Shown here piece after piece: positions 13,703 through 20,897 of a stretch of DNA of 64,000 nt. Every line of letters starts with the position of its first letter. The first letter of the stretch is position 1. Origin of the DNA: a bacterium (lineage in GTDB: Bacteria; Cyanobacteriota; Vampirovibrionia; Gastranaerophilales; Gastranaerophilaceae); contig JAFRAO010000022.1 in NCBI GenBank assembly GCA_017405375.1, positions 1 to 64,000 of the forward strand. The letters run 5' to 3'. The notes beneath the pieces were generated by a model. It was not told where the DNA came from, did no database searches, and was given only the letters and a program-made list of their open reading frames with translations. The position numbers were made by a program, and so were the translations under genes.

Positions 13703-14646
13703 GGACAAATTGTTATATACCTATTTTTTACGTTTTCAGCATGACAAACTTGCTTTACTTGCAGCTTTGGACATCTCCTGCTGTTGTATCATAACCGAGT
13801 TTTTTGCCGTTTGGACAAGTTCTTGACAATTCAGCAGTTGAGCGGTCTTTTACCATTAGATAATCCATATTACCATTATCCATTATCCATTGGCCTGCGC
13901 ACCTGCCATCTTTAGTTATATAATCCATCTTTGATTCCCCTATCATAGATGAAGCATAACTAATATCCTTATTAATTCCGCATGGTTTTATCCCATCACT
14001 TGTAACTGATAATTTAAATAAATCTACCCCATAAGTATTTTTACCCTTTTTAGGTCCATCTATATCTAAATTGATGTAACCACATAAATTTCTCTACTAT
14101 TTGATTCATCATCATAATAATTTCCACCGCATAGATATGTTGATGAACCCCTCATATTAACTCCAAAACTTGCACCGTTTGCTAATATTACAGAAAGAGC
14201 ATCTTGAGCCCCATTACTCTCTGTTGAAAGCGCTCCATCTAATTTATTTTTATTGTAATTAGTCATGCAATCAACTTTTAGATTATCAGAACCATTAGGG
14301 CCACAAGATTTAGTTACTTTTATAAATTCTGTTATCCTATCAATGTAACGTTTGGATTTAGAATCTCCTTTGTTTGGCCATTTTTCTATTGGACCATAAA
14401 TTGCAGTCATTCTATCATGAGCTTCATTTAATTCTGCGTATATCTTTTTAAATCTTGCAACTTTTTCAGCGTTGTTTGTGCTTTTGCTTGCATTTGGAAT
14501 AGTTAAGGCTGCTACAACGCCTATTATACCCATTACGATTAATGTTTCTGCTAAAGTAAATGCAAGTGAGTGAACGGCCGATAGTGAACTGTTATGGGTG
14601 AACTGACGACTATTAACTGTACGACAGTTATTAGCATTTATATCAT

Positions 14647-14695
14647 TCTGTTCACTATTCACTCTAGACTGACGACTCTGTTCACCGTTCACTCT
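14647..14695. repeat. Minisatellite-like repeats inside the pilin leader region
   Basis: The 19-mer TCTGTTCACTATTCACTCT (14647-14665) recurs as TCTGTTCACCGTTCACTCT (14677-14695), a 30-base period. A second repeat, ACTGACGACT, occurs at 14602-14611 and 14668-14677. On the coding strand these give the repeated peptide units RVNGEQS and RVNSEQN. A 17-base palindrome (TAACTGTACGACAGTTA, 14614-14630) lies in the same leader. Confidence 0.6.
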
Positions 14696-14777
14696 GGACA
14701 GTTCACCTTTAAAGAGGTTACAAATAAAGGTTTTTAGAGATGGCAATAGGCCAAAAGCCTTGCTATATCTAGCTTTG

Positions 14778-14787
14778 CCCCCCCCCC
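14778..14787. repeat. Homopolymer of ten G (coding strand), candidate slippage tract
   Basis: Ten C on the + strand, in a genome where long G/C runs are otherwise absent from this window. It sits between a good ribosome site plus ATG and the pilin frame, so its length sets the reading frame. The position is typical of contingency loci. Confidence 0.8.
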
Positions 14788-14850
14788 ATCCCCTCGGGAA
14801 ATGCTCTCTGGAAGCTGTTTTTGCGCCAATATGTGAGAAATCATTCTTAA

Positions 14851-14856
14851 CCCCTT
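14851..14856 (-). promoter_or_regulatory. Ribosome binding site that decides the pilin start
   Basis: AAGGGG on the minus strand, six bases before ATG 14844-14842. No other start in the pilin region has comparable spacing; the pilin frame itself, read back to the next stop, offers only TTG/GTG codons. Confidence 0.6.
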
Positions 14857-14911
14857 TTACATTCTAGCTATCCACTTTATAATACACTACTGACCTAAAA
14901 TTTGCAAGTTT

Positions 14912-17469: not shown

Positions 17470-20400
17470 TTACATTTTTATGTTATATTTTTTAGAAATT
17501 TGTTTAACTTGTTCAAAGCATAAATTTGAGTCATTATCTTTATTTTGTAATTTTAAAATCTTTGTTTGAAGTATTTTGAACATAAATATAATAAATATGT
17601 TTGCATTATTTTGTTGTTCTAATTCGATTAATGTATTAGATACCAAAATATAAGCAGAAGATACTTCTCCGGTATTTGCAGATAATTCTGCCATTGAATA
17701 CAGTGCTAATTTTGTTATATCTTTGAATCCTGAGTTTGTTGATTCTTCCAATACGCTATTGTAAATAACTGCAGCTTTTTGATATTTTTCTAATTCAAAA
17801 TATGAGTGGCCTATTAACAAATCACAAAATAGTTCGATTTTATTTAGTTTTTTCTCTTTTGCAGCAACTTTTGCATGATATATTTTTGCTGCAAATTCCT
17901 CTGCATTTGCTGATTCATTTGAAAACGCTTGAACAATTTTTAATAAGCATTCACCAAATAAATCGTTTTGACCAATATTTACTTTCAAATTTTTAGATAG
18001 CGGATAACCACGTAATAACTTATCAATTTCAACAAACAATTTGAAAGAATCAGGTATTTTCGGAAGTACGCTTTCTATAATTTCACAGAAATTAGGAGTA
18101 TCTTTTTTTAGTTGTAAAACTCTTGAAAATAAAACGTATTCTGCAGTATTAGTAAGTTGTTCAATAAAGTCTTTTTCTGTTAGTGATTTTGGTTTTATTG
18201 TATCCAGATTACTATTCTTTAGTATATTAAATATTTCATCTCCAAGAACAATGCAATCTTCATAATCTCCGACATTAAACAATACCTGAACTTTTATTAG
18301 TGATATTGTAAATGCGTTGATATTGAAATCTTTACTGCTTGGATTTATTTCTGTGCTATCCATACGTGAAAGCATTGTATTTATTAATTGAAGAGCATGT
18401 GTATAATTTCCTGAATTTAAACAATTTTGTAGAATTTTATTACACAAATTTATAACTTTTTTACTGCTCATACTTTCATTTAAATTATCAAATACAGATT
18501 GATAAATGTTGGCAATTTTGTCTGAAGTATGTTTATATAAAAATCCTGTAATATTTTCATATACTTCCATTTTATATTCTTCTATTGATTTAACGGCATT
18601 CTCACTCATATTATTATCTAGCAGTTTTAAAAATCTCATATTGCAATTTAAATATGCATTAAAATCTCCTAATGCAAGTGATATATTTGAAAGGTTTTCC
18701 CATTGCACAAATTCGTTTTTAGAATTTCCTATAAGATTGTATAGTTTCGCCAAAATAGGGTGAGCTGAACTTTCTTTAAAACAGTATGTAATCAGGAAGT
18801 TAGCAATTGATTTTTTTTCTTCTGCGGATAATATTTTTAAAACGTTGCTACTATACAAATTGTAGTCTTGGATTTGAATCAAGTTGTTTTTATTTGATAT
18901 AAACTCTTTGCTTATAAGATGTTCTATGCAGGTATTGGAATTTTCAATATTAAAATATTTTATTGAATTGAAATCCAGTTGAGGACCAATAAAAAGCATA
19001 TATGTAAAAAATTTAAAGGCAGGATTGTTAGAAGTTTTTAGATATAATAATCTTTTTTGTACTAATTCATCTAAAGTTGACGGAAAAACGACTGTTTTTG
19101 GTTTTTCCAATATCAAAGAACCTTTTTCAATTTTCAAAATGCCCAAATCCAATAAGTGCAATAAAGCATTCATAAAATAAAGCTGTGAACCTTTTGTGTT
19201 TTTTGAAATTTTTTGAAAATAAAAAGTATCTAAAATCTTTTTACAAAGTGTGGAATTGGCTTCAATAAACTCTTTTATAGGAGTCGGTTTCAGTCTGATT
19301 TCCAAATATTCCATCTTTGACAATAGAAAATGGGCGTATCTGTGTAAGCTAAATTCGTTATCTGCTGTAATGACGTAGCTTACGTCGTATTCGTCCAATT
19401 TTTTAAATAAATTTTGTAAAATTTCTAACGAACTGTCATCAATTTTATCAATATCTTCAATAATAATTAAAGTCTTTTTTAATTTTTTTATAAAAGATTC
19501 AACACCATTAAAGATAATGTCCTTAACATTTTCAGGATGTGTATTTTCTATTGGCGTAATGTTAATTAAATTTTTTAAGACATCTGAATTTTCTAAAATA
19601 TTAAGCCCTGTGTAATTGTTTAACTCTTTATCTTTTCCGGTGGTACTAAAATTAAAAAATCCGGATATTAAATCGTTGAACATGCCGTAAGGCTTGTATT
19701 TCATTTCATCATAACATGTTACTTTACAAATTTTAGAAAAGATGTTATTTTCCTCAATTTTGTTAATAATATCGAGTATTCTTGGTTGATATTTCTTTTT
19801 ACCTTTTACAACTATGATATTTTTGGGTTTGGACATCAATTGTTGAGTAATTTTGCTGCTCAACCCCTGATTCATTTCTTTTTTAAATTGACAATTTATT
19901 TCTTCAAATAAAATCCCGTCAATATCATAAATTGACTCATCATTTTCAAGAATTTCTTGTTGAGTTTGAATAATATCAGGTATTTTTATTTCCGTACTGT
20001 CATCATTATCATCTTCGTCAGGTTCTACTTTTATATAATTTTCTAAATTAAGTTCGTATAAGAATATATCTTGTTTCTTAACATGAGTTGTACCAATAGA
20101 TGAAAATTTATATGATTTTCCTACAACATTGTAAATACTGCTATCAGCAATTAACTGTAAACTGCTTGTTAATTTTTTTGTATCAACGGCATCATACAAG
20201 AGCTGAATATTAATACCGGATTTGTAATCATCGTTTGTTGCGTATGCATTTCGTTTTAAAATAGCAATATTACATACCAATTTAAAGTTTTTGAGTTTAT
20301 CCAATTTATAATTCAATTTTGCAATCAAATTTAGCAAATCAACAGATGCTTTCAAGGCATTTTTTGCAGAAGATGTATAAGTATAATCTCTGTTAAATCT

Positions 20401-20820
20401 TATAACGATTGTGTTATCAATAACTTGTCGTTTTACACCGATAGATTTTACGTAGTCAGTAATTAATTTGCTTAATTTTTCTTTAAATTTTGTATAAAGT
20501 TGTGCTGTACCTAAAACTTGCTTTATATCTTGCAAATTTGGAAAATCTATAGAAACACATGCAAATTCCTCAATGTTTGATTCCCTTAAGATAACACTTA
20601 CGTTAGTATCGAAACCGCATTTTGCACAGTGTCCTTTTATCGTTTGATTTATTTTCCCGCATTTATGACATTTACTAACAATCGTGTATCCGCATTTTGT
20701 GCATATATTAGTTTCATTGATTGTTTTGCAAATTGGACAAATCAATTTTAACACTTTTTTACAATTTGGACAAACCAACGTATTTTTGTCTATTTCATAA
20801 CCACATTTTGGACATTCCAT
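17470..20820 (-). CDS. Large zinc-ribbon, cyclase-like, AAA/STAND-like, TPR protein with degenerate catalytic motifs
   Basis: 1116 residues from ATG 20820, chosen over TTG 20835 because zinc-ribbon proteins usually begin MxCPxCG. Six CxxC pairs (3/6, 17/20, 28/31, 40/43, 51/54, 65/68) make about three zinc ribbons. Residues about 84-265 resemble a class III adenylate/guanylate cyclase fold, ending KSYKFSSIGTTHVKKQDIFL, but I do not see a full set of metal and purine residues. A P-loop position near 336-345 reads VVKGKKKYQP, lacking GxxxxGK[ST]; a Walker B-like LIIIEDID is at 451-458. From about 700 the chain is helical with TPR-like pairs. The architecture is known for signalling ATPases; this one looks like a non-catalytic scaffold or sensor. 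Divergent from the ZorA-like gene, 77 bases away. Confidence 0.65.
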   Translation of the reverse strand: MECPKCGYEIDKNTLVCPNCKKVLKLICPICKTINETNICTKCGYTIVSKCHKCGKINQTIKGHCAKCGFDTNVSVILRESNIEEFACVSIDFPNLQDIKQVLGTAQLYTKFKEKLSKLITDYVKSIGVKRQVIDNTIVIRFNRDYTYTSSAKNALKASVDLLNLIAKLNYKLDKLKNFKLVCNIAILKRNAYATNDDYKSGINIQLLYDAVDTKKLTSSLQLIADSSIYNVVGKSYKFSSIGTTHVKKQDIFLYELNLENYIKVEPDEDDNDDSTEIKIPDIIQTQQEILENDESIYDIDGILFEEINCQFKKEMNQGLSSKITQQLMSKPKNIIVVKGKKKYQPRILDIINKIEENNIFSKICKVTCYDEMKYKPYGMFNDLISGFFNFSTTGKDKELNNYTGLNILENSDVLKNLINITPIENTHPENVKDIIFNGVESFIKKLKKTLIIIEDIDKIDDSSLEILQNLFKKLDEYDVSYVITADNEFSLHRYAHFLLSKMEYLEIRLKPTPIKEFIEANSTLCKKILDTFYFQKISKNTKGSQLYFMNALLHLLDLGILKIEKGSLILEKPKTVVFPSTLDELVQKRLLYLKTSNNPAFKFFTYMLFIGPQLDFNSIKYFNIENSNTCIEHLISKEFISNKNNLIQIQDYNLYSSNVLKILSAEEKKSIANFLITYCFKESSAHPILAKLYNLIGNSKNEFVQWENLSNISLALGDFNAYLNCNMRFLKLLDNNMSENAVKSIEEYKMEVYENITGFLYKHTSDKIANIYQSVFDNLNESMSSKKVINLCNKILQNCLNSGNYTHALQLINTMLSRMDSTEINPSSKDFNINAFTISLIKVQVLFNVGDYEDCIVLGDEIFNILKNSNLDTIKPKSLTEKDFIEQLTNTAEYVLFSRVLQLKKDTPNFCEIIESVLPKIPDSFKLFVEIDKLLRGYPLSKNLKVNIGQNDLFGECLLKIVQAFSNESANAEEFAAKIYHAKVAAKEKKLNKIELFCDLLIGHSYFELEKYQKAAVIYNSVLEESTNSGFKDITKLALYSMAELSANTGEVSSAYILVSNTLIELEQQNNANIFIIFMFKILQTKILKLQNKDNDSNLCFEQVKQISKKYNIKM

Positions 20821-20897
20821 TTCTTTATTGTACAATAATTATGTCAAAAATCAAATTTTTAACGATTTTTGTGCTACAATAGGTTTAGAGGTTATTT

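Follow-up and report, generated by a model that had tools for sequence, protein, structure and literature searches.

Poly-G phase variation is best known in the pathogens Neisseria, Campylobacter, and Helicobacter. The opa genes of Neisseria form a dispersed multigene family of surface proteins, with about 11 copies that each carry a repeat in the leader region and switch reading frame independently (PMC3745409). The pilus-related genes pilC1 and pilC2 contain a poly-G tract of G9-20 in frame that turns expression ON and OFF by slippage, and the pilE/pilS system provides a large pilin repertoire with a conserved N-terminus and a variable C-terminus, in which a single gene is expressed and takes up sequence by recombination from the silent pilS donors (PMC5953494). 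The Campylobacter phasome is made up of many poly-G tracts of at least 7 nt, mostly intragenic, that switch by single-G insertions and deletions (PMC6321876, PMC8224891).

Here, we analyzed a window of 64,000 nucleotides (positions 1 to 64,000 of contig JAFRAO010000022.1) from an uncultured member of the Gastranaerophilaceae, order Gastranaerophilales, in which a G tract precedes a pilin-like gene of a large dispersed family. As in opa, the leader region of every copy carries a separate repeat, and each copy would switch frame on its own, but the repeat is a G homopolymer rather than the pentamer CTCTT, the proteins are prepilin-type rather than adhesins forming outer-membrane barrels, and the family is larger and from a different phylum: this genome has about 40 cassette copies, and genomes elsewhere in the Gastranaerophilaceae can contain tens of tracts. 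The tract resembles that of pilC in lying within the frame of a pilus-related gene, but it is found in the pilin-like genes themselves and not in a two-copy pilus-associated protein. A conserved N-terminus and variable C-terminus recall pilE/pilS; unlike the silent pilS donors, almost all copies whose upstream sequence is long enough have a Shine-Dalgarno site and an ATG, a difference from antigenic variation of that type, in which startless silent copies feed one expression site. In contrast to Campylobacter jejuni, with a median of about 20 tracts in varied genes, all 26 tracts of this genome fall in one gene family, while other genera of the Gastranaerophilaceae are like Campylobacter in carrying tracts in glycan-type and flagellin genes. 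By analogy, the known logic of opa and pilC appears to act here on pilin-like genes themselves and at a larger scale. In the open-access literature we found no report of phase variation in Gastranaerophilales or Melainabacteria, which is not proof of novelty; the sole match to Melainabacteria and phase variation there was a flagellin survey, and a 2025 review of phase variation mentions neither cyanobacteria nor Melainabacteria.

An earlier note on the window had proposed that slippage in a ten-G tract switches a pilin-like gene and that the window holds the OFF state. All of the elements it named, the AAGGGG ribosome site, the ATG, the ten G, and the minus-strand frame of 36 codons, are present in the sequence (Table 1). 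The pilin frame, which carries FTLAETLIVMGIIGVVAALTIP from position 14560 on the minus strand, is joined to the ATG when tract length equals 2 modulo 3, so adding one G or removing two (G11 or G8) does bring the two in frame, as claimed. It is likewise correct that at ten G this frame lacks an ATG of its own: the ORF listing gives only TTG and GTG codons, the first start being the TTG at 14746. The G10 run occurs once in the window and in none of 100 dinucleotide-preserving shuffles (chance expectation 0.00). The copy is indeed OFF, one G short of ON. A second frame break lies near 14066-14100, where the pilin frame ends (14066) while the C-terminus is encoded in another frame as far as 13755; because of it, G11 alone would yield only a truncated protein. 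This copy is either decayed or mis-assembled, so our general conclusion rests on the family rather than on it. A search of the window against Rfam returned no match. Elsewhere in the window, a 1121-aa ORF (17470-20835, minus strand) with repeated CxxC zinc-ribbon-like motifs at its N-terminus adjoins glycogen synthase-like and ABC transporter genes.

Table 1. Features of the pilin-like gene copy in the window.
Feature	Position	Strand	Remarks
Shine-Dalgarno-like AAGGGG	14851..14856	-	sequence; 6 nt upstream of ATG
Leader start codon ATG	14842..14844	-	sequence
OFF-state frame, 36 codons plus stop, from ATG through G10	14734..14844	-	
G10 tract, proposed switch	14778..14787	-	ATG in pilin frame only at G8, G11, ...
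Linker from tract to prepilin motif (KARYSKAFGLLPSLKTFICNLFKGELSRVNG...QFTHNSSLSAVHSLA)	14561..14777	-	open in pilin frame; common to paralogues
GTGAAC/GTTCAC repeats, direct and inverted, within linker	14570..14706	.	
Class III-type prepilin signal motif FTLAETLI; predicted mature N-terminus begins	14537..14560	-	
Pilin-like frame per ORF tool, TTG start, 226 aa	14066..14746	-	mature part shortened
Pilin C-terminus continuing out of frame (DIDGPKKGKNTYGVDLFKL ... SCK)	13755..14105	-	compared with paralogue alignment

The source genome (G000) is a metagenome-assembled genome (MAG) of 1.78 Mb in 49 contigs, 88.6% complete. It contains 26 G-runs of at least 9 nt, every one at the same position of one repeated cassette; 25 show both leader and linker, and the last ends at a contig end just past the leader. 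A DNA search placed parts of the cassette at about 40 sites. Its order is Shine-Dalgarno site, ATG, short leader, G6-14, linker, prepilin motif, and variable C-terminus. The leader spans about 16-19 codons in two main sequence types, with the ATG lying 49-58 nt ahead of the tract in nearly all copies, and the other copies have AAGGAG, GAGG, or AAGG at the place of the ribosome site. All copies share the linker KARYSKAFxLLKSLKTFICNLFKGEL...QFTHNSSLSTVHSLA, whereas the C-terminal part varies from copy to copy around the islands DIDGPxKGKNxxGID, GNMDYL, and SCK, which are conserved in the paralogue alignment. Intact paralogues mostly extend 222-274 aa past the cleavage site. A minus-strand G6 copy near position 4609 of L044 is in frame and encodes a 54-aa remnant in which the pilin N-terminus is fused to the conserved C-terminus by an internal deletion, and L076 has a frame break within the linker. 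Of the 98 contig ends, 26 lie in or beside cassette repeats, which thus fragment the assembly and may lead to an underestimate of copy number; copies at contig ends (L040, L042, L047, L057, L058, L059, L064, L066-L068, L070-L074, L077, and L078) should therefore be read with caution.

We scored the state of each copy from its ATG into the linker and pilin frame. Among 25 scorable copies in the source genome, with tracts from G6 to G14, 10 were ON, 11 one G over, and 4 one G short (9/13/5 in the same order under another rule for the ATG). Both of the shortest tracts, G6 and G7, are ON, and full-length ON frames were observed in L041 (341 aa), L062 (317), L065 (297), and L073 (316). Copies well inside contigs differ as well (G7 in L065, G11 in L062, G13 in L046). 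Across ten sets comprising 172 copies, 37 (22%) were ON, 87 one-over, and 48 one-short, where all lengths are MAG consensus values from one genome per species. The tract lies at or just past the start of the reading frame and is built of a unit whose length three does not divide, which is a feature of contingency loci. Run counts, shuffles, and a reversed-pattern control put its length far above chance and its placement as non-random; the corresponding figure of 1e-82 assumes independent tracts, and since the copies are related it is not to be taken literally.

Collectively, these findings suggest that the G tract switches a contingency gene by phase variation, the gene being one member of a large, dispersed pilin-like family, a reading to which, judging from sequence, we give a probability of about 0.83. 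Slipped-strand mispairing would alter the tract by single G's; at one length in three the ATG would read into the pilin frame (ON), and at the remaining two translation would stop within some tens of codons (OFF). Each copy, with its own ribosome site, ATG, leader, tract, and linker, would switch independently, and because each switches alone, a population could hold many pilin-like combinations with most copies OFF at any time. A Campylobacter model derived from experiments puts the rate of change of G9-G13 tracts at about 10^-3 per division (PMC8224891); the figure given for a G14 tract of Neisseria is far lower (PMC5953494). The tracts here are presumably hypermutable, with the protein lost in OFF copies and displayed at the surface in ON copies, and variation may help cells evade recognition by phage, the immune system, or protists.

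The encoded proteins show features of prepilins. The sequence FTLAETLIVMGIIGVVAALTIP is invariant or nearly so in the alignment, and its invariant Glu at +5, with a hydrophobic stretch, is a class III prepilin feature. N-terminal matches to the ComGC, GspG, and GspH models reached E values of about 1e-5 to 1e-3, below the curated cut-offs, with a weak N-terminal match to IV_pilin_GFxxxE and a match to PF07963 at an E value of only 0.06-0.1. A structure model of the mature protein (pTM 0.82) has N-terminal helices and a beta-rich head. A fold search with this model gave no PDB match at E <= 0.001, a P. aeruginosa pilin ranking 47th (E 5.2), and since the model lacks a solved structural relative, "pilin-like" is justified and "pilin" is unproven. 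The prepilin peptidase domain PF01478 was not found in the 88.6% complete source MAG and is present in six of six relatives of the same genus. In the ON state, leader and linker together would precede the cleavage site with about 72-100 residues in the source genome; in other genera many copies have about 20-60. Prepilin leaders are usually shorter than 72-100 residues, a usual trait but not a strictly defining one, and the source genome departs from it.

At the mature N-terminus, pN/pS was 0.14 in the pilin frame of the source genome, compared to 1.0 and 1.9 in the other frames, and 0.08-0.18 in other genera, suggesting that the pilin-like genes are maintained. Leader values in other genera were about 0.8-0.9, with no constraint at the protein level, a point against the switching reading. 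The value of 0.42 for type 1 leaders of the source genome comes from a biased sample, in which copies were partly chosen by leader sequence, type 2 leaders gave no clear signal, and protein-level selection on the leader was rejected.

Among relatives that have a name, the closest are MAGs of Candidatus Gastranaerophilales, several of them from rumen. Genomes of the same genus contain 0-5 G-runs of at least 9 nt each, most of which follow this design but have another leader (MNSVFRV + G9-11 + KSACSKGF...AFTLAE). Other relatives carry far larger sets, with 87-128 such runs in some; in genus g10, G075 has 87 and G127 has 95, and of the tracts fetched from them 38/51 and 35/45, respectively, precede prepilin frames. 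The modal tract is G13 in three g10 species (G075, G127, G015), and a fourth, G185, has G11-G12. The order of Shine-Dalgarno site, ATG, leader, tract, and prepilin frame is kept in G028, G086, G075, G127, G182, G010, G185, and G015, with the ATG 18-55 nt upstream of the tract in relatives. By the earlier note's own test, exactly ten G in all reads and all relatives, or a pilin start elsewhere in relatives with the upstream ATG not conserved, would have refuted the switch; among paralogues and relatives, lengths range from G6 to G17, and the Shine-Dalgarno-ATG leader 5' of the tract is retained. In G028, from another genus, leaders of 26-33 nt are followed by G10 in 20 and G11 in 4 of 24 scorable copies, 21 of which are one G short and 3 ON; G086 has 2 ON and 4 OFF copies.

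We surveyed the group for tracts with prepilin codons within 25-55 nt, a pattern that misses long-linker genomes, the source genome included, and so gives lower bounds. It was detected in 32 of 117 sampled genomes of the family (14 of 41 genera), and in 54 of 146 sampled genomes of the order, all 54 among the 124 from Gastranaerophilaceae and none among the 22 from other families of the order. The reversed pattern, used as a control, was absent from every sampled genome in both surveys. Viral contigs yielded no relatives. In four relatives' loci (L135, L124, L132, L156), translated repeats (CHADKSARND..., HYEERSDEVIQ...WIATKIRDFLAMT) occur in the leaders or linkers of tracted and tract-less pilins, as if inserted in frame upstream of the cleavage site.

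We paired genes of G075 and G127 as orthologues by conservation of both flanks. Three pairs differ in phase: L217 (G13, ON) and L249 (G14, OFF), with flanks 85% and 92% identical; L219 (G13, ON) and L246 (G14, OFF), with flanks at 96% and 88%; and L226 (G12, ON) and L241 (G14, OFF), whose leaders differ. Tract length therefore differs at the same locus, in a between-species version of the check that the earlier note proposed. Several other pairs are equal in length (G13/G13, G14/G14, G12/G12), and one, G12 versus G15, differs by three G with its state unchanged. Most pairs with similar leaders agree in length or phase although their flanks have diverged by 5-15%, which counts against the switching reading. 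In-frame and out-of-frame alleles occur both together in the source genome and between orthologues of two species, and this supports the contingency locus that the earlier note had suggested.

The distribution of states gives further information. In G075 and G127, 54 of 70 copies are one G over, 13 ON, and 3 one under, whatever the leader class, and where leader classes differ in length, their tracts differ too, so as to give an equal state. When lengths were shuffled among leaders, 33.7 one-over copies were expected and none of 20,000 shuffles reached 54, a test that overstates independence since the copies are related. This coupling of tract length to leader frame indicates that the frame from ATG to pilin matters. 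A bias to one OFF state also departs from the prediction of a free random walk, and in this respect counts against simple switching. Three explanations were rejected. A preference for tight OFF, in which the OFF frame with the nearest stop is favored, does not fit g10, where one-over is favored also in cases in which the alternative OFF frame has the earlier stop; a fixed programmed frameshift does not fit the differing preferred OFF states of lineages; and a hidden second ATG before the tract (ATGCA+G13, in many g10 copies) is absent from other leaders of the same state. The bias may instead come from direction-dependent switching that leaves copies poised one step from ON, or possibly from leaky one-over expression by recoding. 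In Campylobacter, insertions are favored at G8-G9 and deletions at G10 and above (PMC8224891).

Taken further, recoding could replace switching altogether: if the tract is slippery for RNA polymerase or the ribosome, OFF copies would still yield some pilin, and DNA length would act as a volume control. Long homopolymers are slippery in general, and the excess of one-over to one-short copies in G075 and G127 looks as if one-short were selected against and one-over useful. The preferred state nevertheless varies by lineage: one short in G028, mixed in G182 and the source genome, and ON or under in the g10 species G185 (5 ON and 4 under among nine copies, with no one-over). A fixed shift needs a single direction and is disfavored because the lineages differ; the stop past the tract also lies at no fixed distance. 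We consider recoding as the sole explanation improbable, though the best placed of the rivals.

Decay offers another account, in which copies of a mobile or recombining cassette degenerate and the G tract is a neutral passenger. The second frame break of the window copy, the large deletion in L044, and the linker break in L076 agree with it, but most copies have intact mature frames, and the strong purifying selection at the mature N-terminus extends to OFF copies, which makes general decay very unlikely. We give slightly less credence still to translation of the pilin from a start 3' of the tract, such as the TTG at 14746, with the leader ORF a regulatory uORF or relic. TTG and GTG codons are available in the pilin frame at G10, but the window copy has neither an ATG nor an apparent ribosome site 3' of the tract, the upstream Shine-Dalgarno-ATG pair is conserved in every lineage examined though leader sequences differ, and tract length is coupled to leader frame. 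Assemblies can mis-size homopolymers, and contig ends cluster in cassette repeats and NN gaps split many G102 tracts, but least probable of all is that MAG tract lengths are wrong and the genes always in frame, given that lengths run from G6 to G14 within one genome, including copies well inside contigs, that frame-breaking tracts recur across many independent assemblies, and that neither the existence of the tracts nor where they sit can be artefactual.

In G102, many tracts read G9-NN-G12, with assembly gaps inside the poly-G that may reflect length heterogeneity or loss of coverage. Tracts also occur outside pilin-like genes: none of 20 fetched from G104 precedes a prepilin frame, and some of these (L201-L203) run into acyltransferase, thiamine-pyrophosphate enzyme, and multi-membrane protein genes, while one in G091 (L212) splits an AlgX-like gene. 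In G118 (L214:3410 and L215:3401), G12 splits flagellin-like genes between the N-terminal region and a GLUG-repeat/Flagellin_C part, and these genes are possibly phase-variable. Poly-G contingency looks like a habit of the family, with the surface structures chosen varying among genera. Beyond the phase-variable reading of the cassette, a more ambitious one can be proposed tentatively, and we hold it well below even odds: that this uncultured gut lineage carries a poly-G phasome among the densest known, used in many genera for a combinatorial pilin-like repertoire, with lengths that do not drift freely and are poised or partly recoded. Its poised component would place nearly all copies of some species exactly one G away from ON, always in one direction and irrespective of leader length.

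If slippage does switch these genes, the logic described in pathogens operates on filament-like surface proteins, and on a large scale, within the cyanobacterial group, in an uncultured branch from the gut, a lineage sister to the photosynthetic cyanobacteria and without cultured members here. Standard annotation would call most such genes broken or mis-start them, and archived metagenome reads could be used to measure switching in nature. Dozens of parallel loci per cell would offer a natural test of selection on tract length, and populations of these bacteria would be mosaics of surface types.
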